The position numbers and the translations under genes are program-made. Positions 6,180-30,230 of a stretch of 64,000 nt of DNA are shown here, piece after piece. Under the pieces are notes generated by a model. It made no database searches and was not told the DNA's origin. It saw nothing but the letters and a program-made list of their open reading frames with translations. How positions within the stretch are numbered: position 1 is the first letter of the stretch; each line of letters starts with the position of its first letter. Source of the stretch: Bacteroidota bacterium (GTDB lineage: Bacteria; Bacteroidota; Ignavibacteria; UBA10030; BY39); assembly GCA_030682385.1 (NCBI GenBank), contig JAUXOG010000043.1, positions 36,064 to 100,063 on the forward strand, written 5' to 3'.

Positions 6180-6180
6180 T

Positions 6181-6675: not shown

Positions 6676-6679
6676 GAAT

Positions 6680-8065: not shown

Positions 8066-8069
8066 TTTT

Positions 8070-8984: not shown

Positions 8985-9752
8985 ATGACACTGAAAACTA
9001 CATACTTAATCTTTTTTGTGTTGATAACAATTATGTTTCTGCTCTTGTGCGGATTTGCTAACCAATGGAAGCAAATTATTGTAGTAGAAAAAGTAGAAGT
9101 GCAGGGTATATATATTCTTCCTGAAAGAGATGTTGTAAAATTAGCTGCTGTCAGATTCGGTAATCCGATTTTTGAAATTAATCTCGACAGCATACGAACA
9201 GGGCTTTTGCGTAATGAATACGTTGAAGAAGCAAATATCAGCAGGAGCTTTTCGGGAACACTGCATATTGCAATTCGTGAACGGAAACCGATCGGTTCGT
9301 TGATGTTCAATAAAATGTGGTACGTTGATGATAATGGTACTTTGTTGAGTAAAATTCCCGCGAGTGTGGTTCTCGACCTTCCAATAATTTCAGGAGTGAA
9401 GCTAGAACCGGAAAAAATTAAAGGGGGAACAGTAATTTCTAATACCGATGTTCAAACGGCGATTTCAATATTATCGGAAGTAATGAAAATTGATGACGAT
9501 TTGTATTTCTTAATTTCTGAAATAGATCTCAATTACGGAAAAGACATCATAATTCATTCGGCAGATTATGGTGTGCCGATAAATTTAGGACGCGGTAACT
9601 ACAGTCATAAGTTGAAATTGCTTTCAGCTTTTTGGCAGAAGTATGTTGTTACACGCGGTTCACAAAATTTAGAGTCGGTAGATGTGCGTTTTAAAAATCA
9701 ACTTGTCGTCAAATGGAAAGAAGAACACAAAGCAAAAGATAGAACGATATAA
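8985..9752 (+). CDS. ftsQ: FtsQ/DivIB cell division protein
   Basis: Bitopic division protein linking early and late divisome parts. Of 255 residues, a single N-terminal membrane helix (about 6-24) has almost no cytoplasmic tail. A POTRA domain follows (EKVEVQGIYILPERDVVKLA), then the FtsQ beta domain (RERKPIGSLMFNKMWYVDDNGTLLSK). Sequence conservation in this family is low; the call rests on the POTRA start, topology, length and the place between murB and ftsA. The ATG abuts the murB stop. Confidence 0.9.
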   Translation: MTLKTTYLIFFVLITIMFLLLCGFANQWKQIIVVEKVEVQGIYILPERDVVKLAAVRFGNPIFEINLDSIRTGLLRNEYVEEANISRSFSGTLHIAIRERKPIGSLMFNKMWYVDDNGTLLSKIPASVVLDLPIISGVKLEPEKIKGGTVISNTDVQTAISILSEVMKIDDDLYFLISEIDLNYGKDIIIHSADYGVPINLGRGNYSHKLKLLSAFWQKYVVTRGSQNLESVDVRFKNQLVVKWKEEHKAKDRTI

Positions 9753-9763
9753 AAAGGAATAAA

Positions 9764-10999: not shown

Positions 11000-11038
11000 T
11001 TAATTAATTTTTTCAAAACAAAATAAGGAGATACTGAG

Positions 11039-12214: not shown

Positions 12215-12274
12215 AAGGAAAATAAAATAAGCTACACCTAAATAAAATATCATTAACTAATTACAAAGGTTCTT

Positions 12275-14542
12275 ATGAAGCAATGTTTTGTATTAGCTGT
12301 AATTTTAGGATTTCTTTTTACATTCGCAGTATTTGCCCAGCAATTAGAAATCCATCATATCAACGTAGGACAGGCAGATGCAACGTTGATCAAATCACCA
12401 ACAGGTATTACGGTCTTAATTGATGGTGGTAATACTGGAAATGGAACAAATATAATTCGACCATATTTAACTTCACTCGGTATTACGTATCTCAATTATG
12501 TAATATGTTCACATTATCATGCAGACCACATAGGTGGTTTGGATGAAGTGATAAATGGAATGGGCGCTTCTAACATCGGTGCAGTATATGACAGAGGACG
12601 AGATGCACCACTGCCTACTACAGTCGCATTTACTGATTATGAAATTGCTGCTAATTCAACCGGTCGCCGATATAAAGTTGCACTCGGTCAAGTACTCGAT
12701 CTTGGCGGGGGGTTAACAATGAAATGCGTAGCTACCGATGGTGAAGTATTAAATTTCGGAGTTGTACCCGGTGCTACAGGGAGTGAAAACGATTTAAGTA
12801 TTGGCTGGCTGCTTAACTTTAATACGTTCCAATACTTTACCGGAGGAGATTTAGGCGGTGAATCCACTTCCTATGCCGACAACGAAACTCCTCTCGCACC
12901 TCAAGTAGGTGATGTTGACGCATTTAAAATCAATCATCACGGAAGTCAGTACAGCACAAACCAGACATTTGTTAACACGCTGCAACCGGAAGTTGGAATA
13001 ATACCGGTAGGCACTAACACATACGGCCATCCAACACAAATAGTTCTTGACCGTCTTGACGTTGCAAATTGTTATATCTATCAAACTGCTACTGGTTCAG
13101 GCGGAACAATCCCATCGGGTGCAGGAGTTGTAGCTAATAATCATGTTATTTTAAAAACTTCAGGTACAAGCTATACCGTAACGTATGGTACAACTACTCA
13201 TTCATATACGGGTGATGGTGGTTCAGGGGATGTAACGCCTCCGGTAATTTCGGGCGTCAATGCCTCATCAATTACTTCAACAGGCGCGACGATTAACTGG
13301 ATAACAGACGAAGCATCCAATTCTGTTGTGGAGTATGGCTTAACAACTTCTTATGGTTCATCGTCGTCAAATGCGACTATGGTTACAAGTCACAGTATTA
13401 CTTTAACAGGTCTAAGCGCAAGTACAATATATCATTATCGGGTAAAATCAACGGATGCTGCTAACAACACTGCTACATCAGTCGATTATACATTCACAAC
13501 GCTGAGTAACGATGTAACACCACCTATAATCTCGAGTGTTCAAGTAATTAACCTTACTACAACAGGTGCCACAATTAACTGGACAACTGATGAAGCATCC
13601 AATTCTGTTGTTGAGTATGGATTAACAACATCTTATGGCTCATCAACAACAGATGCAAGCATGGTAACGAGCCACAGTGTTACACTTAGCGGACTTTCTG
13701 CCGGGGCGGTTTATCACTACCGTGTAAAATCTACTGATGCTGCCGGCAATACTACAACCGATGTTGATCACTCATTCCAAACCGGCGCTCCTTATACTTA
13801 TGTCGCATCCGCAACAACGATTACGAGCGGAAGTCTCAGTTCCGGAACTTACTCAAACCTCGCAACTAATAATGCAAGTTATTATGTATTAAATTCTACA
13901 ACAACTGGAACAAGAATAACCGATTGGTATGGAAGTGTAACTATTGCTCAGGTACCATCTTCTATTTCTAAACTCACCGTAACCTATGACGGAAAGTATT
14001 CGCGAACCACAACCCAAACACTTCATTTGTACAATTGGGCAACTTCAGCGTGGGCGCAGATTGATTCCCGTTCAGTCGGAACATCCGATGTAACGGTTAC
14101 AAATGTTCAAGTATCTCCTGCAAACTATATTTCTACATCGGGTGTAATTCGTTTACGAGTGTACGGTACGGGTGGAACGAAGAATTATACATGTTCGGGC
14201 GACTTTATGCAGTTCGTAGTGGATGCTGCCGGTTCAGTTATTTCGAAACCCGGAATTTCAGGCATAGAAAATACTCCCACCACGTTTGCGCTATACCAGA
14301 ACTATCCTAATCCGTTCAATCCGGCAACAACTATCAAATATCAGATTCCGGATGCTATGAATGTAACTTTAAATGTGTATGATATGTTAGGAAGAGAAGT
14401 TGCTACTTTAGTTAATGGATTTGTAGATGCCGGTTCTCACGAAGTTGTATGGGATGCTGCAAATTATCCGAGTGGAGTTTATGTGTATAAACTCACCATG
14501 GGTAACCATTATGAAATGAAAAAGATGTTGTTAGTCAAATAA
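12275..14542 (+). CDS. Secreted ComEC-like metallo-beta-lactamase-fold protein with two FN3 domains and T9SS sorting tail
   Basis: The 755 residues read in order: signal peptide (QCFVLAVILGFLFTFAVFA|QQ), a metallo-hydrolase domain (about 22-300), two near-identical fibronectin type III domains (about 320-410 and 415-505), a stalk, and a C-terminal type A T9SS sorting domain (LYQNYPNPFNPATT...SGVYVYKLT). The hydrolase part is like the soluble domain of ComEC: HHINVGQADATLI, metal motif HYHADHIGGLDEV, then INHHGSQYSTNQTF. It should be exported and anchored or released outside the outer membrane. Its substrate is unknown; nuclease or phosphodiester hydrolase is possible by family analogy. A hairpin terminator follows. 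Confidence 0.88.
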   Translation: MKQCFVLAVILGFLFTFAVFAQQLEIHHINVGQADATLIKSPTGITVLIDGGNTGNGTNIIRPYLTSLGITYLNYVICSHYHADHIGGLDEVINGMGASNIGAVYDRGRDAPLPTTVAFTDYEIAANSTGRRYKVALGQVLDLGGGLTMKCVATDGEVLNFGVVPGATGSENDLSIGWLLNFNTFQYFTGGDLGGESTSYADNETPLAPQVGDVDAFKINHHGSQYSTNQTFVNTLQPEVGIIPVGTNTYGHPTQIVLDRLDVANCYIYQTATGSGGTIPSGAGVVANNHVILKTSGTSYTVTYGTTTHSYTGDGGSGDVTPPVISGVNASSITSTGATINWITDEASNSVVEYGLTTSYGSSSSNATMVTSHSITLTGLSASTIYHYRVKSTDAANNTATSVDYTFTTLSNDVTPPIISSVQVINLTTTGATINWTTDEASNSVVEYGLTTSYGSSTTDASMVTSHSVTLSGLSAGAVYHYRVKSTDAAGNTTTDVDHSFQTGAPYTYVASATTITSGSLSSGTYSNLATNNASYYVLNSTTTGTRITDWYGSVTIAQVPSSISKLTVTYDGKYSRTTTQTLHLYNWATSAWAQIDSRSVGTSDVTVTNVQVSPANYISTSGVIRLRVYGTGGTKNYTCSGDFMQFVVDAAGSVISKPGISGIENTPTTFALYQNYPNPFNPATTIKYQIPDAMNVTLNVYDMLGREVATLVNGFVDAGSHEVVWDAANYPSGVYVYKLTMGNHYEMKKMLLVK

Positions 14543-14571
14543 TTTTCAATCTCCAAATATTGTTTAATTCG

Positions 14572-14610
14572 ACCTCCGGAATCTCAAAATTTCGGAGGTG
14601 TTTATTTTTC
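14572..14610 (+). terminator. Rho-independent terminator after the secreted hydrolase
   Basis: ACCTCCG (14572-14578) pairs with CGGAGGT (14593-14599), extended by AAT/ATT pairing, and is followed by a T-rich run (GTTTATTTTTC). It separates the hydrolase from the CBS gene. Confidence 0.75.
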
Positions 14611-14639
14611 TTGACTTAATCGTAACATAAATTTATATT
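14611..14639 (+). promoter_or_regulatory. Promoter-like site for the CBS-domain gene
   Basis: TTGACT (14611-14616), 17-nt spacer, TATATT (14634-14639), placed about 40 nt before the ATG and directly after a terminator. The same -10 with the same spacer recurs before vapBC, the 801-aa secreted protein, the YaaC-like gene and the cassette array. Confidence 0.6.
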
Positions 14640-14679
14640 CATACTATCGAATGTGTGAAATTAAAAAAAGGAACCTGTT

Positions 14680-15126
14680 ATGAATGCCAAAAAAATATTG
14701 GAATTAAAGGACCATAAAATCTATCAAATCAGGGAGGAGGCAGTTGTTTTTGAAGCGATAGAAGAATTGACTAAAAATAAAGTCGGGTTGCTGATTGTTA
14801 AGAATTCGAGCGGCGATATTTCGGGTGTCCTCTCAGAGCGCGACATCATACGAAAATGTGTTTCTCAAAAAAAGGATCCGCAGCAACTTAGAGTTAGTGA
14901 AATAATGACTCCGCGCGAAAAAATAGTTGTCGCAGGAGAAGAAGATGATATTCAAAGTTTGATGAATACAATGAATGAAAAAAGGATCAGGCACCTCCCG
15001 GTATTCAGAGGCAAAGAAATGACGGGAGTTGTATCAATCGGTGACATCATAAAAAATATGCTCGAGATAAAGGATTACGAAATTAAAACATTGATAGAGT
15101 ATATTTCAGGAAAATATCCGAGATAA
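14680..15126 (+). CDS. Two-CBS-domain protein
   Basis: Small cytoplasmic protein of 148 residues made of a tandem pair of CBS domains (about 12-65 and 80-135), the adenine-nucleotide-sensing Bateman module. Visible signatures are GVLSERDIIRKCV in the first and GVVSIGDIIKNML in the second. No catalytic domain is attached. Stand-alone CBS pairs of this type occur in many bacteria with mostly unknown targets. A good ribosome site (AAAAAAGGAACC) precedes the ATG. A DUF429 gene follows after 6 nt and may be co-transcribed. Confidence 0.88.
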   Translation: MNAKKILELKDHKIYQIREEAVVFEAIEELTKNKVGLLIVKNSSGDISGVLSERDIIRKCVSQKKDPQQLRVSEIMTPREKIVVAGEEDDIQSLMNTMNEKRIRHLPVFRGKEMTGVVSIGDIIKNMLEIKDYEIKTLIEYISGKYPR

Positions 15127-15132
15127 AAATTA

Positions 15133-15750
15133 TTGGGTAAGAGTAAAAGAGTTTTCTCTTCAATCGTAGGCATCGACTTAGCCGGAAGTCCTAAGCGGAA
15201 CACGGGTATTTGTTTACTGAAAGGGAAAACCGTAGATAAGTATGCTACTGTGTATTCAGATTCAGAAATAATTTCTTTTGTGGAAGAAGCTAAGCCAATG
15301 CTTGTAGCAATAGATGCACCCTTAAATCTACCACCAGGACGAAAAAATATTGACGACAGGAACGGCGAGCATTTCCGTCCGTGCGATAGGGAGTTGTTGA
15401 AACGCGGTATCAGGTTCTTTCCGATTACACTTGGTCCAATGCGTTCTCTGACTGTCCGTGGGATTAAACTGAAAAAAATTTTGAAACGTAAAGGTTATGA
15501 GGTAATAGAAATTTACCCCGGTGCCGCTCAGGATGTTTGGGGTATTCCAAGAAAACAAAAAGGACTTTCAAAACTCAGAAAAGGTTTAGAAAAGCTTGGC
15601 TTGAAAGGGTTAAACAACAAGATGAACGGCGATGAACTTGACGCTATTACAGGGGCATTGACCGGCAAATTGTTTCTGCAGGGAAAAGCTGAAGTTTTAG
15701 GAAATTGCAAAGGAGGGGCAATAATAGACCCCAAAAACATAAAGTTATAA
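15133..15750 (+). CDS. DUF429 family predicted nuclease-like protein
   Basis: The 205 residues match the DUF429 / COG2410 family, predicted to have an RNase H-like fold. Motifs seen are GIDLAGSPKRNTGICLL with a putative metal-binding Asp, VAIDAPLNLPPG, RPCDRELLKRGIRFFP, EIYPGAAQDVWG and NGDELDAITGAL. No function is established for the family. The start shown is TTG, 6 nt after the CBS gene; no better start exists before IVGIDLAG, so the exact N-terminus is uncertain. Confidence 0.8.
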   Translation: MGKSKRVFSSIVGIDLAGSPKRNTGICLLKGKTVDKYATVYSDSEIISFVEEAKPMLVAIDAPLNLPPGRKNIDDRNGEHFRPCDRELLKRGIRFFPITLGPMRSLTVRGIKLKKILKRKGYEVIEIYPGAAQDVWGIPRKQKGLSKLRKGLEKLGLKGLNNKMNGDELDAITGALTGKLFLQGKAEVLGNCKGGAIIDPKNIKL

Positions 15751-15754
15751 GTAG

Positions 15755-15811
15755 CCCGAATTGTTGATTTCTTCAAAACAACTTTTTATATTCACACTGT
15801 ATCAATTCGGG
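15755..15811 (+). promoter_or_regulatory. Promoter-like site enclosed by a 9-bp inverted repeat
   Basis: TTGATT (15764-15769), 17-nt spacer, TATATT (15787-15792). The pair is enclosed by CCCGAATTG (15755-15763) and its exact complement CAATTCGGG (15803-15811). It lies about 85 nt before the YaaC-like gene. The repeat could be an operator or, if transcribed from upstream, a long-loop hairpin after the DUF429 gene. Confidence 0.5.
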
Positions 15812-15894
15812 AATAAATGGTAGTATTTATATATAGATAGAAGTTCAGTATAAATAATAGTTAGCTAGCATTATTCAATATTAATATCGTTTCT

Positions 15895-16905
15895 ATGGGA
15901 ATTGGATTAAAATATCAAGGTTCTTTTCAAACTATAGGAATTAAATATCCAAGCGAAAATCCCTTGTCTGAGCTTTGGTCTCGAATTGATCAACTCGGTT
16001 CTTCAGCTTTTTTGCATAATTCTATACGTAAGTTAACATCAGATGAAGAATTTGAGAAACTCATTGAATATTCGTCTTTAAGGATCCGTCAAGGAGTCCA
16101 GTTTCGTGAAGCTTCAAGTGGATCAAGGCAATTAACTTCACCTCTCACCTTGTATTATTCATACTTAAATTTGACTCGCGCTATTCTTGCCTTAAAGACT
16201 AGTTGCATTCCTTCCAAAGGACATGGGCTGAAATTAGTGGAATCAAATAGTCTCCTACAATGTGCTGCAAAAACGGGAGAAGGTACTTTTCAAGAATATC
16301 TCAAGACTTTGGGTGTTGATCTCCAAAATAATACAACCTTCAGTTTGCAATATGTGCTTTCCCACATTGTTGAATTCACAAATGACAAGGCAATAGACCG
16401 AATGCTTGTGATACCTCCTTGTGCAATTTCTATTTATGTGGATGCTGAAATAGATGGTCCGGTTCTTTTGCGCTTTCCACCAGCCCTGAAAGAATTTAGA
16501 AATGATTGGTCGATAGAATTTCCACATCTAAAAGGAATATGCTCTTTAGCTTCCGAAGGAAATGTTTTATTGGTTAATCAAGAGTTTACGAATGATAATT
16601 CATATTATGAAATATCGAAATTCTGCTCTGATCATTTATTGCCAAGTCTTACAATTCAAGAAATACCAACTTGGTATTTATTAAGAAATATAGATGATAA
16701 AAAAGTATTGCCACGCACTGCTTATTATTTTATCGCAAGTTTTATTCTTGGTAGTCTCGTGCGATATCAGCCAGAATCACTTCAGGATGCAATGGATGTT
16801 AATTCTGAAATTAATTGGCTTATTAGACGTTTTATTTCTTATAGCGAAAGATTCTATCCTCAACTGATGTTATGCTGGCTCTATGGTAAACAAATATATT
16901 TTTAA
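15895..16905 (+). CDS. YaaC-like protein
   Basis: The 336 residues resemble the YaaC family: a central SPLTLYYSYLNLTRAILA segment, GHGLKL, and a helical C-terminus ending in a segment with a conserved histidine/serine-poor helix bundle. The family is widespread but uncharacterised. I see no catalytic motif. The coding region is more AT-rich than the dcw genes. The ATG is the first in frame; the ribosome site is weak. The gene is isolated, with its own promoter-like site, and is followed by a palindromic repeat. Confidence 0.6.
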   Translation: MGIGLKYQGSFQTIGIKYPSENPLSELWSRIDQLGSSAFLHNSIRKLTSDEEFEKLIEYSSLRIRQGVQFREASSGSRQLTSPLTLYYSYLNLTRAILALKTSCIPSKGHGLKLVESNSLLQCAAKTGEGTFQEYLKTLGVDLQNNTTFSLQYVLSHIVEFTNDKAIDRMLVIPPCAISIYVDAEIDGPVLLRFPPALKEFRNDWSIEFPHLKGICSLASEGNVLLVNQEFTNDNSYYEISKFCSDHLLPSLTIQEIPTWYLLRNIDDKKVLPRTAYYFIASFILGSLVRYQPESLQDAMDVNSEINWLIRRFISYSERFYPQLMLCWLYGKQIYF

Positions 16906-16975
16906 GTGCTGGCTAACCAGACGCTAGCTGACAGCAGCGAAACAGGTTTGTAAAAAGTCTGTTTGTAAATTAAAA

Positions 16976-17029
16976 AGGACAATAACGACTAAAGCGACTT
17001 TTAACTGTCCTTACTGTCGTTTAAGTCCT
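16976..17029. repeat. Palindromic repeat upstream of the four-helix-bundle gene
   Basis: AGGAC-n4-ACGAC (16976-16989) mirrors GTCGT-n4-GTCCT (17016-17029), giving a symmetric hairpin. Related words (AAAGGACATTAAGGACAGCAACGAC) recur at 24141-24165, and the gene's 3' flank starts with AAAAAAGGACAGAAATGA, so this looks like a dispersed element. Confidence 0.6.
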
Positions 17030-17053
17030 ACAGAATATCATAGGTACGGCAAT

Positions 17054-17632
17054 ATGGGTGAGAAGCAATACAATAAAGATGGATTTATTCCGCAGCATGG
17101 CGGCTACCAAAAATTGCTTTCATACAAGAAAGCCGAAATAATCTATGACGGCACTGTATATTTTTGCAAAAGGTTTTTTGAAAAAAGAGACCGCACTATA
17201 GGCCAAATGGTGCAGGCGGCTCGTAGTGGTAAACAAAATATCGCAGAAGCAAGTATGGGATCAGGCACTTCCAAAGAAGCCGAAATTAAACTAACAAATG
17301 TAGCACGAGCAAGTCTTGAAGAATTGTTAATCGACTATAGAGATTTTCTTCGAACGAGAGGTTTAAAAGAATGGGAAAAAGCCCACCCTTATGTTGCCCG
17401 ATTACGCGAACTTAATAAAGACCCAAACGGAAACTACGAAACATTCCGTAAGGGCATCGAAAACAAAGACCCCGAAATTTGCGCTAATGTAATTATGGGT
17501 TTGATAAAAGTAGCTTCTTTTTTGTTAGCCCGACAAATAAAGCACTTAGAGGAAGAATTTCTCAAAGAAGGAGATTTACGAGAGAGAATGACTCGCGCGA
17601 GACTTAAAGAAATTAAAAAAGGACAGAAATGA
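17054..17632 (+). CDS. Four-helix-bundle protein (S23 / 23S rRNA intervening-sequence type)
   Basis: The 192 residues match the four-helix-bundle S23/IVP-like family with the extended 'suffix' form: SYKKAEIIYDGTVYFCKRFF, the signature QMVQAARSGKQNIAEAS, SKEAEIKLTNVARASLEELLIDYRDFL, then a charged C-terminal helix. In other bacteria these are encoded in rRNA intervening sequences or stand alone, and the related Avd proteins work with diversity-generating reverse transcriptases. No reverse transcriptase or rRNA is nearby, so the role here is unknown. It is flanked on both sides by GGAC-rich inverted-repeat sequence. Confidence 0.8.
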   Translation: MGEKQYNKDGFIPQHGGYQKLLSYKKAEIIYDGTVYFCKRFFEKRDRTIGQMVQAARSGKQNIAEASMGSGTSKEAEIKLTNVARASLEELLIDYRDFLRTRGLKEWEKAHPYVARLRELNKDPNGNYETFRKGIENKDPEICANVIMGLIKVASFLLARQIKHLEEEFLKEGDLRERMTRARLKEIKKGQK

Positions 17633-17767
17633 TTTAAACGATTTTTTAAAAGTCATTGCCCTCCTTATAGTCATTTAAAACCAGATAATTATCACAAGGG
17701 CAAGAATGCAGGAAATAGAAAAAGTGAATATCATCGAAGGCAAAAAGTAATGCGGCTAAAGCATTTA

Positions 17768-19129
17768 TTATTCTTTCCTCTCCATCCCGTACTTTTTCAT
17801 TTTAGTATAAAGATTACTTCTCTCGATATCCATCGCTTCGGCGGTTTTGCTTATATTCCAATTGTGAATTTCGAGCATTCGCTTTATAAAAGCAGCTTCC
17901 GATCTGTCCTTAAATTCTTGATATGTTTTGCTCGTTGCAATTATGTCGTCTGTGGCAGTTCCTTTTGTTAATCCCGTCGGCTCAAGCATTTCAACTTCGA
18001 CCGTGTTGCCTGGAGTAAGAATGATAAGTCGCTCAACAATATTTCTTAGTTCGCGAATGTTACCACTGTATTCAAGCCCTTTCAAGTAATTCAATGCCCG
18101 CTCGGAAAATTTTTTTGGCGTGATTCCGTACCGGGTACATATATCATCTACAAATGATTTTGTTAAAACCGGAATATCATCTCTTCGCTCGCGTAAAGGA
18201 GGAACATGTATCGGAATAACATTCAGACGGTGGTATAAGTCTTCTCTGAAATTGCCTTTCTTAATTTCCTCAATCAAATTTTTATTTGTTGCTACAATTA
18301 CTCGAACGTCAACAGAAATTAATCTATTGCCGCCGACTCTCTCAATCTTTCCTTCTTCGAGTACGCGTAAAACTTTTGCTTGGGCAGCTAAACTCATGTC
18401 GCCGATTTCATCGAGGAAAATTGTGCCGCCGTCGGCTTGCTCGAATTTACCAATCCGCTGAGCAGTTGCACCGGTGAAAGAACCCTTTTCGTGTCCGAAC
18501 AATTCCGATTCAATCAAATCGTGAGGAATAGCCGCACAGTTTACTTCGACCATTGTTTTTGCGGAACGCTTGCTAAAACGATGGATTGCTTTGGCTACTA
18601 ATTCTTTGCCGGTTCCGTTTTCGCCGGTTATCAGGACTCGTGTGTCGGTCGGAGCTATTCGCTCAATCAGCGATAATATCTCTTTAAGCTTCTGGCTCTC
18701 TCCCAGAATATTATCTTTACCTTCAAGTTTCTGACGGATAGTTTCTATTTCGGCGGTTAATATTTTATGATCAAGAGCGTTACGAAGTGTAACAAGCAAT
18801 TTATCTCTATCGAGTGGTTTGGTTAAAAAATCGAAGGCGCCTAACTTTGTTGCTTCGACCGCAGTTTCGATTGTGCCGTGACCGGATATCATTATTATGG
18901 GCAAATCGGTATGCCGGCTTTTTATAGTTTGTAATACTTCGATGCCATCCATCCCCGGCATTTTTACATCGAGAAGAACTGCATCAATGCGATTTTCAGG
19001 ATTATCTAATATTGCAAATCCTTTCGGCCCATCTTCAGCGAGTTCTACTTCATACTTTTCGTAATTTAGTATCATTTTAACTGCGTCGCGGATACTCTTC
19101 TCATCGTCAATTATTAAGATTGTTTTCAT
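17768..19129 (-). CDS. Sigma-54-dependent response regulator, NtrC family
   Basis: The 453 residues hold three domains. The receiver (1-120) has phospho-acceptor LLDVKMPGMDG. The sigma-54-interacting AAA+ domain (about 140-370) has Walker A GENGTGKELVAKAIH, the sigma-54 contact loop GSFTGA and Walker B GGTIFLDEIGDM. The Fis-type HTH at the C-terminus reads NWNISKTAEAMDIERSNLYTKMKKYG. It should activate sigma-54 promoters when phosphorylated. No histidine kinase is adjacent; the only kinase in the window is 40 kb away. ATG start; monocistronic. Confidence 0.95.
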   Translation of the reverse strand: MKTILIIDDEKSIRDAVKMILNYEKYEVELAEDGPKGFAILDNPENRIDAVLLDVKMPGMDGIEVLQTIKSRHTDLPIIMISGHGTIETAVEATKLGAFDFLTKPLDRDKLLVTLRNALDHKILTAEIETIRQKLEGKDNILGESQKLKEILSLIERIAPTDTRVLITGENGTGKELVAKAIHRFSKRSAKTMVEVNCAAIPHDLIESELFGHEKGSFTGATAQRIGKFEQADGGTIFLDEIGDMSLAAQAKVLRVLEEGKIERVGGNRLISVDVRVIVATNKNLIEEIKKGNFREDLYHRLNVIPIHVPPLRERRDDIPVLTKSFVDDICTRYGITPKKFSERALNYLKGLEYSGNIRELRNIVERLIILTPGNTVEVEMLEPTGLTKGTATDDIIATSKTYQEFKDRSEAAFIKRMLEIHNWNISKTAEAMDIERSNLYTKMKKYGMERKE

Positions 19130-20096: not shown

Positions 20097-21743
20097 TTAT
20101 GTCTGAATTACTCCCGGATTGAAGCGTGGAATATTCGGATTATTAGCTGCAATCCCAAGCGTGTAAGAAATAATTTTACGAGTATCGATAGGATCGATGA
20201 TATCATCGACCCATAATCGGGCTGCGGCATAGAGCGGGTCGAGTTGGCGATTATAGCGTTCCTGGATTTCGGAAAGCATCTTCTGCTTTTCCTCCTCGGA
20301 AATTTTATCTTTGTTACCACCTAAACGGATTGTCAGGAGTGTCTCGCTTGATTGTTTTCCTCCCATTACAGCGATTTGAGCAGTGGGCCAAGCAAAAATA
20401 AAACGAGGGTCGTAAGCTTTACCGCACATCGCATAATTTCCGGCGCCGTAGCTATTCCCGGTTATAAAAGTAATTTTCGGCACTACACTGTTAGCAACTG
20501 CATTTACCATTTTAGCACCATCTTTAATAATGCCGCCTTGTTCTGAACGGGTCCCGACCATAAATCCCGTAACATCCTGAAAGAAAATAAGCGGAATATT
20601 TTTTTGATTGCAATTCATTATGAACCGTGTGCCTTTATCGGCGCTGTCGCTGTAAATTACACCACCAAATTGCATCTCGCCTTTTTTGGTTTTTACAAGT
20701 GCACGTTGATTTGCCACGATTCCGACCGCCCAACCATCTACGCGAGCGTAACCTGTGATTATCGTTTTGCCGATGCCGGCTTTGTATTCATCGAACGAAT
20801 CATCATCCACGATACGCGATAAAATCTGGTAAGTGTCGTATGGTTTTGTCCGGTCTTCAGGAAAAATACCATAAATTTCTGACGGGTCGAGATTCGGCAG
20901 CTTCGATGCGATCCTATCAAATCCGGCTTTGGGTGTCTGTCCAAGTTTACTAATGATATTGCGGATTGTTTCCAAGCAAACTTCATCGTTCGGCATTTTA
21001 TAATCAGTAACGCCGCTTATTTCGCAGTGCATAGATGCGCCGCCTAATTCTTCGATGTCGGCATCTTCGCCGATGGCTGCTTTGACGAGAGCTGGTCCTG
21101 CTAAGAATACGCTTCCGGTTTTTTCTACAATCATGGCTTCGTCGCTCATTATCGGAAGATAAGCACCGCCTGCAACGCAAGGTCCCATGATTGCTGAGAT
21201 TTGGACAATTCCCATCGACGACATAACGGCATTATTGCGGAATATTCTTCCGAAGTGTTCTTTATCCGGAAAAATTTCATCCTGCAGAGGGAGAAAAACA
21301 CCAGCCGAGTCAACGAGGTAAACTATAGGTAAGCGGTTTTCTATTGATATTTCCTGCGCGCGAAGATTCTTTTTGCATGTAATCGGAAACCAGGCGCCGG
21401 CTTTCACTGTCGCATCGTTAGCAACGATTACAACATCTCTGCCGTGAATTTTTCCGATACCGAAAATTGTTCCTGATGCGGGTGCGCCGCCATATTCGTT
21501 ATACATATCGTAAGCGGCAAATAATCCTATTTCTAAAAAGTAACTGCCGGGGTCGATTAGTTTTTCGATTCTTTCGCGGGCTGTAAGTTTATTCCGTTTG
21601 TGGTGTTTTTCAATATTTTCTTTCCCACCGCCGAGTTTGATGATATCGGCTTTCGCTTTTATCTTCCTGACTAAATTTTTGTTAAAGTCATCGTTGCGGT
21701 TGAAGCCGTTGTCGTGTGTTATTTCAGTGCCTAATTTTGCCAT
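20097..21743 (-). CDS. Acyl-CoA carboxylase beta (carboxyltransferase) subunit, methylcrotonyl/propionyl type
   Basis: Biotin-dependent carboxyltransferase subunit that moves CO2 from carboxybiotin to an acyl-CoA. The 548 residues contain the N-terminal KLTARERIEKLIDPGSYFLE, the acyl-CoA pocket GGAYLPIMSDEAMIV...FLAGPALVKAAIGE and HCEISGVTDY, and the C-terminal half with FFQDVTGFMVG and GNSYGAGNYAMCG. Length and motifs favour the methylcrotonyl-CoA carboxylase beta group over PccB, but the substrate is uncertain. No biotin carboxylase subunit is in the window. Its first 24 codons are duplicated at 22380-22451. Acyl-CoA dehydrogenase and meaB, likely pathway partners, lie beyond a 7-kb accessory insert. 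Confidence 0.92.
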   Translation of the reverse strand: MAKLGTEITHDNGFNRNDDFNKNLVRKIKAKADIIKLGGGKENIEKHHKRNKLTARERIEKLIDPGSYFLEIGLFAAYDMYNEYGGAPASGTIFGIGKIHGRDVVIVANDATVKAGAWFPITCKKNLRAQEISIENRLPIVYLVDSAGVFLPLQDEIFPDKEHFGRIFRNNAVMSSMGIVQISAIMGPCVAGGAYLPIMSDEAMIVEKTGSVFLAGPALVKAAIGEDADIEELGGASMHCEISGVTDYKMPNDEVCLETIRNIISKLGQTPKAGFDRIASKLPNLDPSEIYGIFPEDRTKPYDTYQILSRIVDDDSFDEYKAGIGKTIITGYARVDGWAVGIVANQRALVKTKKGEMQFGGVIYSDSADKGTRFIMNCNQKNIPLIFFQDVTGFMVGTRSEQGGIIKDGAKMVNAVANSVVPKITFITGNSYGAGNYAMCGKAYDPRFIFAWPTAQIAVMGGKQSSETLLTIRLGGNKDKISEEEKQKMLSEIQERYNRQLDPLYAAARLWVDDIIDPIDTRKIISYTLGIAANNPNIPRFNPGVIQT

Positions 21744-21753
21744 AAGATATTTG
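21671..21753 (-). repeat. Direct repeat copy A (intact 5' end of the carboxylase gene)
   Basis: About 80 bp containing the carboxylase start codon and first codons. It recurs in the same orientation at 22380-22461 with scattered mismatches and one missing T. The two copies bracket the KilA-N gene. Confidence 0.85.
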
Positions 21754-21761
21754 CTTTTTTT

Positions 21762-22367
21762 TTATTTTAAAAGTTTCATTGATTTTGATTTTAACAAAGA
21801 AGTCATTTGGATAATTGCGATGCCATTCAATTTAGATAATCTTTCTGATTGAGTTAAAGCTTGGCGAATAAAAATCGAATTAAGACTTTCAATAGCAAGT
21901 GTACGTTGTAGATTCCAACTTAATGATTGAGTTTTAGCTTCTTCGAGCTTTAGCCGTTGGAATTCTTTTAATAGATAAAGCTTAAACTCTGCACTTACCC
22001 AAGCTGCAAATTCAAAAGCGATATCTTGATGAGCGAAAGTACCACCGGTATTGCCGGCTCTGGAAATAATACCGATGGCATTTGTTGCCTCAATCCATTT
22101 TGAAGGCGAAAGTACAAACGAATTACTACCGGCTTCGTACATAAAGGAGTCGAATTCGACCCCTTTGAAATTTGGATTATGAAGCTTTTCCCATAATCCT
22201 AAAAACTCAATAGTCGTTCTTGACCTCATCCAGTTTTTTACCACATCTTTCGGTTCATTTTTATTTTTATAACGAGCAATATCTGTTAGCGAAATGTAGT
22301 CTTCGCTTTTCTGACTAGTGAGCGATATTTCAGTTCCTTTTACATTTAATTTAGTATTCTTTTTCAT
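21762..22367 (-). CDS. KilA-N domain protein
   Basis: The 201 residues carry a KilA-N DNA-binding domain (YISLTDIARYKN, VVKNWMRSRTTIEFLGLWEKLHNPNF, FVLSPSKWIEATNAIGI, TFAHQDIAFEFAAWVSAEFKLYLLKEFQRLK). It then runs SLSWNLQRTLAIES before diverging into a short unrelated-looking C-terminus, shorter than relatives I recall (about 260-280). It sits exactly between two copies of the carboxylase 5' end. KilA-N genes are common phage or mobile hitchhikers; a regulatory role here is not supported by context. Confidence 0.85.
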   Translation of the reverse strand: MKKNTKLNVKGTEISLTSQKSEDYISLTDIARYKNKNEPKDVVKNWMRSRTTIEFLGLWEKLHNPNFKGVEFDSFMYEAGSNSFVLSPSKWIEATNAIGIISRAGNTGGTFAHQDIAFEFAAWVSAEFKLYLLKEFQRLKLEEAKTQSLSWNLQRTLAIESLNSIFIRQALTQSERLSKLNGIAIIQMTSLLKSKSMKLLK

Positions 22368-22379
22368 AATGATATCTAA

Positions 22380-22451
22380 CTAAATTATTGTTAAGTCCTC
22401 GGTGCGGTTGAAGCCGTTGTCGTGTGTTATTTCAGATCCAAGTTTTGCCAT
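22380..22451 (-). pseudogene. Duplicated 5' fragment of the carboxylase gene
   Basis: Reads MAKLGSEITHDNGFNRTED then a frameshift to LTII and stop. The intact gene reads MAKLGTEITHDNGFNRNDDFNKNLV. A single T missing relative to the intact copy causes the shift. The fragment marks the outer edge of a 709-bp segment carrying the KilA-N gene. Confidence 0.85.
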
Positions 22452-22487
22452 AGGAATATTTTAGATTGATGATTTGGGATTTATGAA

Positions 22488-24339: not shown

Positions 24340-24748
24340 TTACGCAAAATAGTGTTCGGGGTTAAAAATTCGAAGACCTAAATCTGAATCTCGAAACAAA
24401 TTCGAATTCCTAAAATCTATTTTCTTAATATTTGCCAATGCAAGATATGCCCCATCACAAATGGCAGCAGCTTCTTCGTACGAAATATTTGCCGGCTTTA
24501 TTGCGATTGAACCTGTTTCGGGAATACAAATGTATTCCGCGTGCGCTCCAAAACGCGAAGTTGTTAATCCAAAAACCCGGTCGCCGTTTTTAAATGTTTT
24601 AACATTTTTTCCAACTGATACAATCTCACCAGCCAACTCACTCCCTAAAATCTTTCTTTTGGGTTTAAAGAGACCATTGATTAATCTGATGATAAGAGGA
24701 TGTTCGATTTACTGTTGTTGCGTGTATTGTATAAACAATTGCCTTCAT
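24340..24748 (-). pseudogene. Decayed zinc-type alcohol dehydrogenase / quinone reductase
   Basis: Starts MKAIVYT and jumps directly to IHATTVNRT, losing the segment normally between them. It then shifts frame (LIIRLINGLFKPKRKILGSELAGE) into the ORF listed at 24340-24636 (IVSVGKNVKTFKNGDRVFG...YEEAAAICDGAYLALANIKKID), and stops before the nucleotide-binding domain. Internal deletion, frameshift and C-terminal truncation together make it non-functional. The start overlaps the upstream ACT gene stop by ATGA. Confidence 0.8.
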
Positions 24749-24927
24749 AAGTATTCCTTCAAGATTGCTTTGATTCGAGCGTCTTCAAATAAAAAATGCG
24801 CTATTCCTTTACCATCAAAGACAAACGCCCCGCCGTCCTCTACGCTTACACCTGCACTGCCCAAAGCCTCACCCATTTCGGCTAAAGCCCCTGGACGATT
24901 TTCCAAACGTACGGCTAAATCTCTCAT
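24745..24927 (-). CDS. Short ACT-domain-like protein, probably truncated
   Basis: The 60 residues MRDLAVRLENRPGALAEMGEALG...GVSVEDGGAF form a single ACT-like amino-acid-sensing fold. Relatives I recall are about twice as long with a second ACT repeat, so this is probably a truncated gene. The stop overlaps the start of the dehydrogenase remnant. It lies 19 nt after the OsmC gene and may be co-transcribed. Confidence 0.55.
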   Translation of the reverse strand: MRDLAVRLENRPGALAEMGEALGSAGVSVEDGGAFVFDGKGIAHFLFEDARIKAILKEYL

Positions 24928-25453: not shown

Positions 25454-25529
25454 GGCTAACGGCGTTGCCGATAAACAGCTTTTCCCGATTTCTTTTATTG
25501 TGGGCGTCCGCTTGATTGGCGGGTTAGGC
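25454..25529 (-). repeat. attC-like site 1 (after the CBASS cassette)
   Basis: On the minus strand: R'' GCCTAAC (25529-25523), containing the stop codon of the effector gene, then CAATCAAGCGGACGCCC, a good L'' match, and R'-like GTTAGCC (25460-25454), one base off GTTRRRY. The length of 76 bp fits attC. The L' half is weak. Confidence 0.7.
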
Positions 25530-26114
25530 AACCTTTATTTTATTTAATTTAATTTCTCCAATGGTTTTTCGTGAAGTCCAATATTCACCTTCCATACTAG
25601 TTACGTTGAAACCAGAAAACTGTAATAGAGTTGTACCATAATGAATTTGACTTCTCTCTCTAATACTAGTTTTAGGTATGTTTATATATGAATAATATAG
25701 TTGTTGCAATCCACGCTCTTTATCAATATCAAAAGATGCCGCAACACTAAAACTATTGCTTTCATTTGATTGTATTTTAATTTGTGTATTAAAAAATGTC
25801 TGTGTGATCTGAATTGAAATGGAGATTGGATTTTGTATTTTATCTTGCCAAGTTGAGATTATTATCCCCTCCCAATTACCAGACAAATCTGGGAAAGGAA
25901 CAAGCCAAGGATAAAAAATCTTTATTTTCCAAAACCATTTAACAAATAAGGTCCATATTATTAGGTTAATTGAAATAGTTGTCGAAATGTCTTTAAAAGC
26001 AGTATCAAATTTAATAGATGATAAATTCTGATTTAGAAGAAATAATATGATGTAAGTTCCAAAAGCTAATCCTAATATAGTAGAACCAAACGCTCTAAGA
26101 TTATACTTTACCAT
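25524..26114 (-). CDS. cap15: CBASS effector, Cap15-like (2TM plus beta-barrel)
   Basis: The 196 residues have two N-terminal membrane helices (about 9-28 and 47-62) and a beta-rich soluble domain from residue 75: PDLSGNWEGIIIS, PISISIQITQTFF, LYYSYINIP, IHYGTTLLQF, MEGEYWTSRKTIGEI. This is the layout of SMODS-associated 2TM-beta effectors (Cap15), which bind a cyclic nucleotide and disrupt the inner membrane during phage infection. It starts 1 nt after the CD-NTase stop, with the ribosome site GGAG inside that gene's end, so the two are translationally coupled. The stop codon TAA lies within the R'' box of the cassette's attC. Confidence 0.82.
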   Translation of the reverse strand: MVKYNLRAFGSTILGLAFGTYIILFLLNQNLSSIKFDTAFKDISTTISINLIIWTLFVKWFWKIKIFYPWLVPFPDLSGNWEGIIISTWQDKIQNPISISIQITQTFFNTQIKIQSNESNSFSVAASFDIDKERGLQQLYYSYINIPKTSIRERSQIHYGTTLLQFSGFNVTSMEGEYWTSRKTIGEIKLNKIKVA

Positions 26115-26115
26115 A

Positions 26116-27006
26116 CTAAAACTCCAAATAATTATAAGAAAGTATTACAAAATTATTAACATCTTCTTTAGTCCATTTTCTACCAGAATGAAATAAATAT
26201 AAGAGTTCAGAAACTTCGCCCCATTTTTTGCATTTATCTTGTTCTTCTGTTGATCCATATAAATAGACAAGTGAAGATTTTACTCTTTCTGTCCAACTAT
26301 CATTATCATTAAAAATAGTATCAGGAATATTCCACATCAGACTTTCAATTAAAAATGAAGTGATATGGTCGTTTGTGAAAGAACCATCTTCAACCATTTT
26401 ATTTTTTAATTTCTTGAAAACTCTAACTAATCTTTTAAACCTTTTGCTAGTATTCGAATTTTTAGTTTTACTATTTTCGAGGTGTTGATTTGGAAAATTA
26501 ACAACCATCTTATAATCATCGCTAAAGAATTTTGTGCCCTCGACATATGAACCATCAATAGAATATCGATGATAATTAAAGGTGGGTACAACATCAGCTT
26601 GAATCCTATTAGTATTACCTTTAACTGTGATACATTTATTTTTCCGTTCAATAGAATCACGGCCAAATTTATTGACTAAAGCATTTTCAACAGAATCCTT
26701 AAACGTCGAAAACTTATAATCACTTGGCGAGTTAAGCTGGAAATCACCTCGATTTTTTCCTTCAGGTAAATCGAAGAAAAAAATATCCATTAATCGTACA
26801 TTAATATCAACGTCACTATCTAACCTAATATTAGTATCGTTCGCATAAGATCCTTGACCAAATATTTGTATTTCTTTTTCTTTTAATACAGAATCGGCCT
26901 TTATAGCTTCACTTATCATTTTTTGTGCATTGGCTAATTTTGTCTCTTCAGTATCACTTGGAGGTTTACGCCAATTATTAAATGTTTCTTCAGATATTTT
27001 ACCCAT
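26116..27006 (-). CDS. CD-NTase (cGAS/DncV-like cyclic oligonucleotide synthase) of a CBASS system
   Basis: The 296 residues show the CD-NTase active site: GQGSYANDTNIRLDSDVDINV with GS at 52-53 and Asp65/Asp67, and the third acid in IQADVVPTF (Asp138). The helical C-terminal half (FKRLVRVFKKLKNKM, ITSFLIESLMWN) fits the second lobe. These enzymes make a cyclic di- or trinucleotide on phage infection. Paired only with the downstream 2TM effector, this is a minimal two-gene CBASS with no Cap2/Cap3 modification genes. The ATG lies 11 nt after the cassette boundary GTTAGGC; ribosome site weak. Clade and product cannot be assigned by eye. Confidence 0.88.
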   Translation of the reverse strand: MGKISEETFNNWRKPPSDTEETKLANAQKMISEAIKADSVLKEKEIQIFGQGSYANDTNIRLDSDVDINVRLMDIFFFDLPEGKNRGDFQLNSPSDYKFSTFKDSVENALVNKFGRDSIERKNKCITVKGNTNRIQADVVPTFNYHRYSIDGSYVEGTKFFSDDYKMVVNFPNQHLENSKTKNSNTSKRFKRLVRVFKKLKNKMVEDGSFTNDHITSFLIESLMWNIPDTIFNDNDSWTERVKSSLVYLYGSTEEQDKCKKWGEVSELLYLFHSGRKWTKEDVNNFVILSYNYLEF

Positions 27007-27016
27007 AATATTAGTT

Positions 27017-27179
27017 GCCTAACGGACTGGAGCTAAGCTGCGTTGCAACGTTCCAGCGGGTTGATTAAAGTTTTAAATTTAAAATGCTGTTTCATAACGT
27101 AAGTTGTATTTAGAAATCTCAACACTCAAAACTTTTGCGCGTCGGCGGTTGCAACGTCTGCTTGAGCGACTGGTTAGGT
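27017..27179 (-). repeat. attC-like site 2
   Basis: On the minus strand: R'' ACCTAAC (27179-27173), CGCTCAAGCAGACGTTGCAAC (L'' region), variable middle, GTTGCAACGCAGCTTAGCTCCAG (L' region), R' GTTAGGC (27023-27017). The arms pair as an imperfect hairpin with unpaired bases, as in integron attC sites. Length 163 bp. This is the clearest attC in the window. Confidence 0.85.
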
Positions 27180-27820
27180 TGTTTTAGTAATTGAGAGGAC
27201 CATACTGTGGATCATATATACCATAACCGAATACTTTGTTTTCTCTTAAATAAAATTCGACTTGATATTTTTTAAAAGAATAAACTCGAACTGTTCCATC
27301 TTTGGATTTTGTAATATCCGAAGGCTCACCAAAATAATCTTTTATACTTTTAAGATCATAACTGTGAAATTGACGATTAAGCAACTTTGGAGAGTCATAA
27401 TCCCAAACCGAACAAGTATATATTATGGCGGATACTTTATCATTTTTGAAATACACTTCATAAAATATTTTTCGCCACGTATATTCTGTCTTATCATAAA
27501 ACCAACTTGAGTTTATTTCATCATAAAAATGGTTGTCACCTTTGATAAACTTTACGTCCTCTTTTGAAGAGCCTAAGTTTATATCCCAAAATGTTGAAGC
27601 GAGCGTTGGGTATTGGAAATTTAAACTGGGAAGTATAAATTTATATATACCAAATCCTGATAAACCTAAAACGATAACAATAATTATCCATTTTGCTATT
27701 TTCTTCCAATTCCATCGGTCTTTTGTAGAATTAAAAAGTAACACCAAACCGATAATTAAAGCTGACAAAAATATTGATAGACCAAGATTCATAAATTCCT
27801 CTTGTTCAAAACAACCTAAC
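27173..27820 (-). mobile_element. attC-bounded gene cassette with the 202-aa membrane protein
   Basis: The minus-strand 5' edge G^TTAGGTTGTTTT (27820-27808) is the exact reverse complement of its own 3' R'' context AAAACAACCTAAC (27185-27173), 13 of 13 bases. This is the best boundary match in the array. Confidence 0.8.
27184..27792 (-). CDS. Cassette-borne membrane-anchored protein of unknown function
   Basis: Not recognised. The 202 residues have two hydrophobic helices at the N-terminus (about 4-20 and 33-52) and a soluble C-terminal domain with DINLGSSKEDVKFIKG and IKDYFGEPSDITKS. That pattern is reminiscent of BamE/SmpA-like folds where a short helix pair precedes a beta sheet; this is weak inference. 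A good ribosome site (AGAGGAATTT) precedes the ATG. The gene fills a cassette with attC sites on both sides and is AT-rich like the other cassette genes. Confidence 0.7.
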   Translation of the reverse strand: MNLGLSIFLSALIIGLVLLFNSTKDRWNWKKIAKWIIIVIVLGLSGFGIYKFILPSLNFQYPTLASTFWDINLGSSKEDVKFIKGDNHFYDEINSSWFYDKTEYTWRKIFYEVYFKNDKVSAIIYTCSVWDYDSPKLLNRQFHSYDLKSIKDYFGEPSDITKSKDGTVRVYSFKKYQVEFYLRENKVFGYGIYDPQYGPLNY

Positions 27821-28038
27821 GGCGTTGCGCCTAACCCGCCGCCCCAAGCAAGGAAGCCAAGCTAAAACGGAATGCCAAAGATTAAACAAACTGCACTTAA
27901 CTTGCATCAGCAAGTGCAGTTTGTAAGTTAATTAATTAGAATGAACACTTAGAACAAAATGCCGAACAAAAACCAAACGCCAAAAATTATAAATTCGCCA
28001 AACCAAAATGGCGGTCGGCGTTGAGGCGCTGGTTATAT
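27814..28038 (-). repeat. attC-like site 3 (long form with internal hairpin)
   Basis: Minus strand: R''-like ATATAAC (28038-28032), CCAGCGCCTCAACGCCGACC (L''), a long variable part, GGCGGGTTAGGCGCAACGCC (L'), R' GTTAGGT (27820-27814). The variable part holds a 13-bp perfect inverted repeat ACAAACTGCACTT (27886-27898) / AAGTGCAGTTTGT (27912-27924). At 225 bp it is longer than most attC sites. Confidence 0.7.
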
Positions 28039-28757
28039 GCGTTTTTATAATAGCCTTACGAACTCATTTGGTAAAGCAACTAATACCCATTCCGTAGAAA
28101 TTTTATTATCATTCAATACTTCAAATGTCCTAACACCGTTATCTAAGGAAACCAATTTTAAAATTATCTGATTCCATCCTTGCTTAAATATAACTTTGTT
28201 ATACTGCGTAATAATTGTTCTTTCGTATTGAGGATACATTTGGTCTTTTAACAATACGGTCCATTTACCAGTTACTTCAGTCGATCGGTCGAAATAGTAA
28301 TAATGAATTTGATAGTCACCAACAATCGAATTTATATCAAAACCATTTGTACTACCACATTGGATTGGGAAAGAAATTCTTTCATAATGTTCTAATGTAA
28401 GTGAAATAAATTTTGCAGTAGTATCACTAAATTGAATACTATCTTTCATCTCAAAATAAATGCTATCCTCTCTTTCAACCTTTAAGTAATTATGAAGCAC
28501 TTCACTTGGTGGATTTGGCAAATTTATTTTGAAACTTCCATTACTTAAAATCTTAGTATGTGCTAATAAATGTTCAACAGAGTCAATTGAGACTCTCCAG
28601 AGAATGCTATCTCCATTTGCAGGATTCCAATTAATAAATTGACCGTTAATTTCATTTGGAGAATTGCTAATAGGATCTACCGACTTTTCCGTACATCCTA
28701 TTAAAACGACAAGAAGAATAAAAACTATTATTTTTTTCATAACATTAAGCATATAAC
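28032..28757 (-). mobile_element. attC-bounded gene cassette with the lipoprotein
   Basis: The minus-strand 5' edge GTTATATGC (28757-28749) is the exact complement of the R'' context GCATATAAC (28040-28032). The R boxes are of the GTTATAT type and deviate from strict GTTRRRY. Confidence 0.65.
28045..28740 (-). CDS. Cassette-borne lipoprotein of unknown function
   Basis: The ORF track starts at 28866, but the natural start is the inner ATG at 28740: KKIIVFILLVVLIGCTEKSVDP is a lipoprotein signal with lipobox VLIGC. The mature part is beta-rich (INWNPANGDSILWRVSIDSVEH...) with no domain I recognise. The longer ORF would read through the cassette edge and attC-like DNA. The gene ends 7 nt before the R'' box at 28038. 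Confidence 0.65.
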   Translation of the reverse strand: MKKIIVFILLVVLIGCTEKSVDPISNSPNEINGQFINWNPANGDSILWRVSIDSVEHLLAHTKILSNGSFKINLPNPPSEVLHNYLKVEREDSIYFEMKDSIQFSDTTAKFISLTLEHYERISFPIQCGSTNGFDINSIVGDYQIHYYYFDRSTEVTGKWTVLLKDQMYPQYERTIITQYNKVIFKQGWNQIILKLVSLDNGVRTFEVLNDNKISTEWVLVALPNEFVRLL

Positions 28758-28890
28758 TATTAATTATACTGCCATATAGCGTGCTATCAAACAGGCAGCG
28801 TGTGTGATAGATTCCATATGTTTTATTGTTTTTATTTTGTTTTCCATAATTTGAGCGGGCTATCACTCATATCATTATAGGATGTTATCC
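28751..28890 (-). repeat. Possible degenerate attC-like (or attI-like) site at the upstream edge of the array
   Basis: Minus-strand GGATAAC (28890-28884) and GTTATAT (28757-28751) bracket two partly complementary AT-rich arms (TATAATGATATGAG / TATGGCAGTATAATTAATA). The pairing is imperfect and no gene lies upstream of it within the array, so it may be a decayed attC or an attachment site of another type. Confidence 0.35.
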
Positions 28891-29066: not shown

Positions 29067-30230
29067 TTATTTTAGCAACTCTCTCGATATCACCAACTTC
29101 TGTATTTCAGAAGTCCCTTCGCCGATTGTTACAAGTTTAACATCGCGGTAAAATTTTTCGACAGGGTAGTCTTTTATAAATCCGTAACCACCGTGAATCT
29201 GGATCGCTTCGTTCGTTACCATAACTGCAACCTCAGACGCATAATACTTTGCCATTGAGGATTCTTTTATAACTTCTTCGCCTTTGTTTTTCAAATAAGC
29301 AGCTTTATAAGTTAATAGTCGAGCTGCCTCAATTTGTGTTACCATCTCGGAAAGTTTCCATTGAATCGCTTGAAACTCTGAAATCGGTTTTCCGAATTGC
29401 TGTCGTTCTTTCGAGTATTTCAAACTTGCCTCGAATGCGCCTTGTGCAATTCCAAGTGCGTTTGCGGCGATGCTGATTCGTCCGCCATCTAAGATAGTTA
29501 AAGCTTGATGGAATCCTTTGCCTTCTTCGCCGATTAAGTTCTCTATCGGAATTGCACAATTGTCGAATGCAATCGCAGCCGTATCGCTCGAGCGCATACC
29601 TAATTTATTCTCTTTTTTGCTTACGATAAATCCGGGCGTATCGTTTTCCACGATGAATGCAGAGATGCCCTTCTTACCTTTCGACTTGTCGGTTATCGCA
29701 AGCACCACGGTTACTTTTCCAACTGAACCATGAGTGATAAAATTTTTACTGCCGTTGAGTATGTAAGAATTTCCGTTGCGCATTGCTGTCGTTTTCATAC
29801 TTCCGGCGTCGCTGCCTGATGAAGGTTCGGTAAGTGCCCAGGCGCCTATCTTTTTACCGGTTGTTAAATCGGGTAAATATTTTTTCTTTTGTTGTTCGTT
29901 GCCGAATGTGTAAATATGGTTTGTGCATAAGCTGTTGTGTGCGGCAATTACTAATCCCATTGATGGATCGGCTTTGGAAATTTCCTCAATAATGGTAACA
30001 TATTCAAGATAGCTGAAACCCGCACCACCATATTCTTCAGGAAATATAACACCCAAGAATCCTAATTCGCTCATCTTCCGGACGATATCGAAAGGAAACT
30101 CCTGCGATTCGTCGTACTTCATAATAACGGGTTTAATTTCTTTTTCTCCAAAATCACGTGCAAGCTGTTGAACCATTCTCTGGTTTTCAGTCATCTCGAA
30201 TGTCGGTATTGTTTGTTCGGTTGAATTCAT
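29067..30230 (-). CDS. Acyl-CoA dehydrogenase
   Basis: FAD-dependent alpha,beta-dehydrogenation of an acyl-CoA, passing electrons to ETF. The 387 residues fit the short-chain/branched-chain group: [16 protein letters not shown], the FAD/substrate motif [21 protein letters not shown] (about 135), [46 protein letters not shown], and the C-terminal [34 protein letters not shown], which includes the region with the catalytic Glu. Placed with meaB and, across the accessory insert, the carboxylase, so branched-chain or short-chain acyl-CoA catabolism is likely. Confidence 0.95.

Follow-up and report, generated by a model that had tools for sequence, protein, structure and literature searches.

Introduction

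The layout of minimal type I CBASS has been described (PMC10419184), and oligomerisation of the Cap15 effector and disruption of the inner membrane are established in the same source. The closest relative with a solved structure is the CdnE of Cecembia lonarensis (ClCdnE). According to the accessible text of PMC10442399, ClCdnE and other CdnE enzymes that form cyclic di-pyrimidines are paired with Cap15, and pyrimidine choice is tied to an acceptor Asn, a lid-2 His, a Glu equivalent to E264 of the enzyme described below, and an RxW motif. The same text leaves undecided which cUU isomer activates Cap15. Integrons were described in 2025 as defence stores in V. cholerae, V. parahaemolyticus, and mobile integrons, with systems of two genes at most, as far as the accessible part of PMC12409362 covers them. 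At least two attC sites without an integrase constitute a CALIN (IntegronFinder 2.0, PMC9024848).

Here, we analysed a stretch of 64,000 nucleotides from a genome of the Ignavibacteria (the window, numbered from its first base), in which a sequence-only reading had proposed a CBASS operon carried as a single attC-bounded cassette. We consider it highly probable, from sequence comparison and modelling, that a minimal type I CBASS is carried here as one integron cassette, which takes the third place of a CALIN-like array within a chromosomal integron locus. The array, its genes and attC sites, and the two acyl-CoA genes that flank the locus all lie on the minus strand.

The CdnE Synthase and the Cap15 Effector

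The CD-NTase gene (26116..27006) encodes 296 aa, which were assigned to clade E (CdnE) by Pfam SMODS, PADLOC, PDB, and conserved residues. The SMODS match exceeded the cut-off (27.8 bits vs 26.5), and the PADLOC oligonucleotide cyclase profile (Cyclase, PDLC00801) matched at 1e-116. The best solved structure was ClCdnE (PDB 7x4a, 2.5e-115), with 56% identity between the crystallised protein and the window enzyme. The GS...DxD motif and third Asp noticed in the initial reading correspond to G52-S53, D65-x-D67, and D138, which were invariant in an alignment of seven homologues. The residues for pyrimidine selection were also kept, as lid-1 N170, lid-2 H175, E264, and R276-K-W278. Of these, N170, R276-W278, and E264 aligned with N169, R275-W277, and E263 of ClCdnE, and the enzyme thus carries both the lid-1 Asn and the (R/Q)xW motif. 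We predict that it is a cyclic di-UMP or cyclic di-pyrimidine synthase.

The effector gene (25524..26114) begins 1 nt past the CD-NTase stop codon, in agreement with the coupling reported in the initial reading, and encodes a protein of 196 aa with two transmembrane helices and a beta-barrel of the Cap15 type. Pfam Cap15_CD_rec matched it well above the cut-off (97 bits vs 31; 1e-27), while Cap15_TM matched below its cut-off (1.7e-4). The PADLOC 2TM effector profile matched at 7e-66, and the sequence matched the Cap15 structure 7n34 at 5e-10. An AlphaFold2 model built with 23 homologues (pLDDT 85) showed long helices at residues 6-28 and 36-59 together with eight strands, and its top PDB match was again 7n34 (TM 0.85 by target, E 9e-7). 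The fold is therefore common to the window effector and the Yersinia aleksiciae Cap15 (7n34/7n35) over the beta-barrel receptor domain, while the identity over the aligned barrel is only ~26%.

The profile searches and the structure prediction by which the proposed assignments could be checked thus bore out both proteins independently, SMODS and Cap15_CD_rec each being matched above the cut-off. A CD-NTase with the GS...DxD...D site stands next to a Cap effector with a cyclic-nucleotide receptor domain, and the cassette holds these two genes only, with no Cap2/Cap3 or HORMA/TRIP13 ancillary genes. By sequence and modelled fold, the pair is a minimal type I CBASS, as had been proposed. Upon phage infection, CdnE would make a cyclic dinucleotide that contains uridine, and its residues point most likely to cyclic di-UMP; the Cap15 barrel would bind this product. 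Oligomers of Cap15 would then break the inner membrane and kill the infected cell before phage release.

An inverted logic is conceivable, in which the cyclic nucleotide restrains the 2TM-beta toxin and death follows once this signal disappears. Cap15-related 2TM-beta proteins act in this manner beside mCpol in Panoptes (PMC12657230). The synthase here is instead a CdnE that shares 56% identity with an enzyme of CBASS, and the best solved relative of the effector is a CBASS Cap15. We regard the Panoptes-like logic as very improbable because the synthase is CdnE, and retain the CBASS assignment.

Cassette Boundaries and attC Sites

The cassette limits were taken from the first base after G^TT of the upstream R' to the G of the downstream R', which delimits a complete CBASS cassette of 1563 bp (25460..27022). 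This assignment draws on the end inverted repeat (GTTAGGCAAC/GTTGCCTAAC), the attC sites on both sides, and the geometry. The cassette starts with G^TTAGGCAAC (core G at 27023) and ends with GTTGCCTAAC, so that the complementary pattern G^TTRRRY...RYYYAAC falls within one and the same cassette. The ends match exactly over 10 bp, which supports the earlier statement that the pair is enclosed by exact reverse complements; none of 400 shuffles of the flanks reached this length, which rules out chance pairing. The stop codon of the effector (TAA, 25526-25524) was likewise found inside the R'' box (GCCTAAC, 25529-25523), where the initial reading had placed it. The leader from the cassette start to the ATG of the CD-NTase is 16 nt.

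Simple scans for attC by arm pairing were either too strict or too noisy in comparison with shuffles, and were replaced by a covariance model (R1). R1 was built from 18 aligned attC sites of relatives, whose genomes all have an integron integrase above the cut-off; to avoid circularity, it includes no window sites. Pairing between the R and L boxes of the 18 training sites leaves the classical extrahelical base. The three best R1 matches over the 64-kb window were attC_B (27017..27179; 61.5 bits, E 7.6e-13), attC_A (27814..28038; 52.4 bits, E 1.1e-10), and attC_C (25454..25529; 35.1 bits, E 1.4e-6), all in the orientation of the genes, and their ranking was the same with the filters off. The R' core of attC_B is the start of the CBASS cassette, while attC_C (R'' GCCTAAC, R' GTTAGCC) is the attC of this cassette itself; the attC sites suspected on both sides of the pair were accordingly recovered by a covariance model. 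A scan of the whole genome returned the two stronger window sites and two sites on another contig, C22. At the gathering threshold, Rfam found only a tRNA in the window and nothing at the array, which is no evidence on attC either way.

attC_C is the weakest of the three array sites and its R and L boxes pair imperfectly, and most homologues outside the cassette group are without such flanks. These observations could mean that the flanking hairpins are unrelated repeats, between which the operon landed by another route. Against this, a model blind to the three attC sites recovered them in one orientation at E 1e-6 to 8e-13, the end repeat is cassette-specific, intI together with an array occupies this locus in a sister genome, and homologues in other phyla show the same kind of ends. 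We find unrelated repeats scarcely credible, and read the flanks as attC sites.

The Array and a Promoter-like Site at Its Head

With these three attC sites, the CBASS is the third of three cassettes. Cassette A, with ends GTTATATGC/GCATATAAC, contains an ORF for a predicted lipoprotein (28045..28740), and cassette B, with ends GTTAGGTTGTTTT/AAAACAACCTAAC, an ORF for a membrane protein that matched no family above cut-off in a Pfam scan (27184..27792). Neither ORF matched a PADLOC family. Across the array (25454-28760) and two other loci (L016 and L018), the end complementarity reaches 9-13 bp, beyond the 7-bp R boxes, and it pairs the two ends of one cassette rather than neighbouring cassettes, for example, GTTAGGTTGTTTT/AAAACAACCTAAC. 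The G+C content of the CBASS pair is 29%, compared with 39% in the flank at 1-19000.

An attI-like head (28752..28790) precedes cassette A. Its 21 bp at 28752-28772 are identical to the spacer between intI and the array in a genome of the same genus (G001). The head could be aligned both with this spacer and with the head of the array on contig C22, and ~200 bp are common to G001 and the latter. The shared sequence suggests that the array head is attI. A structure at 28889-28753, considered as a fourth attC, gave no R1 match and is more plausibly this attI-like head. Within the head lies a promoter-like TTGATA-16-TATAAT (28790-28763), which matches at 11 of 12 promoter positions, the best in the region, as a consensus match only.

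The sequence-only reading had held that the operon moves without its own promoter. This fits the 16-nt leader, as the cassette can hardly hold one. Transcription would therefore start from a promoter at the array head or reach the pair by read-through from the neighbouring cassettes A and B. Expression from the third array position may be low.

Contig C22 of the same genome carries a second attI-headed array without a neighbouring intI (L018 4955-7429), and its attC sites closely resemble attC_A and attC_B. One of its cassettes also has two ORFs, for a small membrane protein and an ABC ATPase (L018 6363-7258). To call a two-gene cassette unusual, as the initial reading did, was therefore too strong; the accessible part of PMC12409362 also reports defence systems of up to two genes.

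The Chromosomal Locus and the Missing Integrase

The array lies between an acyl-CoA dehydrogenase gene (29067..30230) and an acyl-CoA carboxylase-type gene (20097..21743). In the same-genus genome G001, a true IntI (430 bits) is encoded directly beside the orthologue of the dehydrogenase, and the end of its contig C2 holds an array with at least eight R1 matches below E 1e-5 (L052), which adjoins the orthologue of the carboxylase. The two genes are adjacent in two family members (G002 and G004), corresponding to the empty site.

No IntI was found above the cut-off among the 140 contigs of the window's assembly; the best TIGR02249 match scored 141 bits vs 265 and left the stretch around profile positions 180-232 unaligned. 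A tblastn search of the window with the G001 IntI gave no intI remnant. The intI gene next to attI and an array that marks a complete integron was thus not found in this assembly, where a missed integrase is possible given its 140 contigs. With three attC sites in one orientation and no integrase found, the array agrees with the CALIN definition (PMC9024848); a point of difference is that a same-genus genome has intI at the same locus. Given that intI, the loss of the integrase here may be recent. Judged from these sequences, the locus is the site of a chromosomal integron, and its integrase has either been lost or is missing from the assembly.

Other features of the locus were also noted. At 21690-22460, a KilA-N gene (21762-22367) stands between two copies of the carboxylase 5' end, each with the bases upstream of it, and looks as if it had inserted with a duplication; ORF6N and DUF559 genes follow. 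Between ORF6N and OsmC (24340-24927), short alcohol dehydrogenase and ACT-like fragments resemble decayed genes.

The CBASS might be silent cargo. Its cassette, though intact in appearance, would then be stuck in an array under decay, with no integrase, inadequate transcription, and no protection of the host. The integrase missing from the genome, the third array position, and the weak last attC (attC_C) are all in line with this, as are the C22 array, likewise attI-headed without a neighbouring intI, and the failure to find the pair in the family relatives listed. On the other side, neither ORF is disrupted and no catalytic residue is lost, which means that decay has not begun, and the array head has a promoter-like site. 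We consider silent cargo rather unlikely, and favour a CBASS cassette that would be expressed as outlined above and would move when an integrase, here acting in trans, recombines the folded bottom strands of the attC sites. Movement of this particular cassette is inferred, given that the assembly yielded no integrase, that its downstream attC is the weakest, and that no near-identical copy turned up elsewhere.

Related Pairs in Other Genomes

CdnE homologues are patchy in the class, where four of 294 genomes, including the window genome, have one. None was detected in the family relatives G001, G002, or G004, and no near-identical copy of the CBASS cassette was found elsewhere, the homologues being at most ~60% identical. 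A scan of genome contigs gave 55 relatives, with readable flanks in 29 operons. Inverted repeats of 8 bp or more were present at the ends of 10 of the 29 (window included), compared with 0.03 expected by shuffling. Three further operons were cassette-like by eye, from Aequorivita (L074), a Bacteroidetes MAG (L079), and a member of the Pleurocapsales (L107), in the last of which only the cassette start was seen. Two others (L086 and L088) look like cassette remnants.

In all, there are ~12 other cassette-like loci, which belong to Bacteroidota (Cecembia, Fulvivirga, Maribacter, Aequorivita, Flavobacterium, and others), Ignavibacteriota, Cyanobacteriota, Gammaproteobacteria, and a 'PVC' MAG. Binning errors may affect some of the MAG hosts, for example, L085 (titled Helicobacter) and L087 (Patescibacteria), and the spread over phyla therefore rests mainly on isolates. 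IntI was above the cut-off in three of 12 cassette-like genomes (L073, L092, and L107).

The initial reading had proposed to look for the cassette with different neighbours, and related pairs were indeed found as cassettes in such settings in other genomes. In Thiorhodococcus (Gammaproteobacteria), the pair lies between two attC sites supported by R1. In Ignavibacteria Bin_45 (G191, 55% identity), it is the first cassette after a tyrosine recombinase, with the start GTTATGCAAC, the end GTTGCATAAC, and the effector stop inside R'', followed by further attC-like hairpins. In Flavobacteriaceae LYZ1037, it stands third in a cassette array. The attC-like repeat of this array has 35 matches in the genome, and the neighbouring cassettes have 10-bp end repeats of their own. 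CdnE homologues on Vibrio plasmids (37%) stand beside other plasmid genes, with no cassette array in the annotation, and no cassette ends were seen in the flanks of the one homologue from a viral contig (47%).

The tyrosine recombinase of G191 (L053 6187-7059) is XerA-like (NF040815, 230 bits), scores 208 vs a cut-off of 265 as IntI, and in its best stretch has an alignment with the IntI profile that stops at position 179. A different CBASS, made up of a patatin phospholipase and a CD-NTase in another genome (G094; L055 9386-7521), also lies between R1 matches, of 35 and 21.7 bits, of which the downstream one is degenerate.

Repeats of ~125 bp that resemble attC were observed in LYZ1037 (L149 and L151; contigs C3 and C2) and in Maribacter and Aequorivita genomes, with 35, 11, and 8 matches. 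Their arrays have cassette-specific end repeats of 9-10 bp. These genomes gave no IntI above the cut-off and no match to the Ignavibacteria attC model. These Bacteroidota arrays are possibly an integron-like system with a divergent recombinase.

In a tree of 36 CdnEs, one clade (SH-aLRT 94) united nine cassette rows, two remnants, and one non-cassette row, while the window, Thiorhodococcus, L092, and L095 fell outside it. The cassette label needs several changes on this tree, of which the starred branches force only three. CdnE-Cap15 pairs have likely entered cassettes repeatedly, the number of entries being uncertain.

Related pairs are packaged alike in several phyla, and the module therefore appears to spread in the way of an antibiotic-resistance cassette; close relatives of the window cassette would have passed between phyla by the integrase route given above. 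We see an even case for a wider proposal, a cassette-adapted lineage of type I CBASS. The ordinary home of its CdnE-Cap15 pair would be a promoterless 1.5-kb cassette with ends GTTAGGCAAC...GTTGCCTAAC, passed among Bacteroidota, Ignavibacteriota, Cyanobacteriota, Gammaproteobacteria, and others by integrons, and in Flavobacteriaceae by attC-like arrays without a recognisable IntI. ClCdnE would be a member.

Comparison with Known Systems

A whole predicted abortive-infection pathway, consisting of a sensor-synthase and a killer effector, fits into one gene cassette and could travel as such. This suggests a route for CdnE-Cap15 systems into unrelated phyla, as well as a possible storage of killing effectors under weak or absent expression until they are shuffled to a promoter.

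ClCdnE-Cap15 of Cecembia lonarensis is likewise a two-gene operon with a 2TM beta-barrel effector and has the same donor and acceptor residues. Its locus (L072) also has the cassette-end repeat of the window (GTTAGGCAAC/GTTGCCTAAC), and no integrase was found above the cut-off in the C. lonarensis genome. The accessible text of the ClCdnE paper (PMC10442399) makes no mention of cassette ends or an integron.

That integron cassettes can carry defence genes, which the sequence-only reading took as established, was published in 2025 and is reviewed in the accessible part of PMC12409362. We found no report of a CdnE-Cap15 or CBASS cassette in the literature as far as its accessible text extends, and the original cassette lists of 2025 may include CBASS. 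As cited in the accessible part of the same review, Darracq et al., Kieffer et al., and Getz et al. (2025) described defence genes of one or two ORFs in attC-bounded cassettes, as here. The window differs from those cassettes in carrying a CdnE-Cap15 CBASS, in Ignavibacteria and with relatives in other phyla, and it lies outside the Vibrio and clinical integrons in which cassette-borne defence was studied. Storage of defence in integrons was thus already known, and the interesting part is the recurrent, cross-phylum CdnE-Cap15 cassette.
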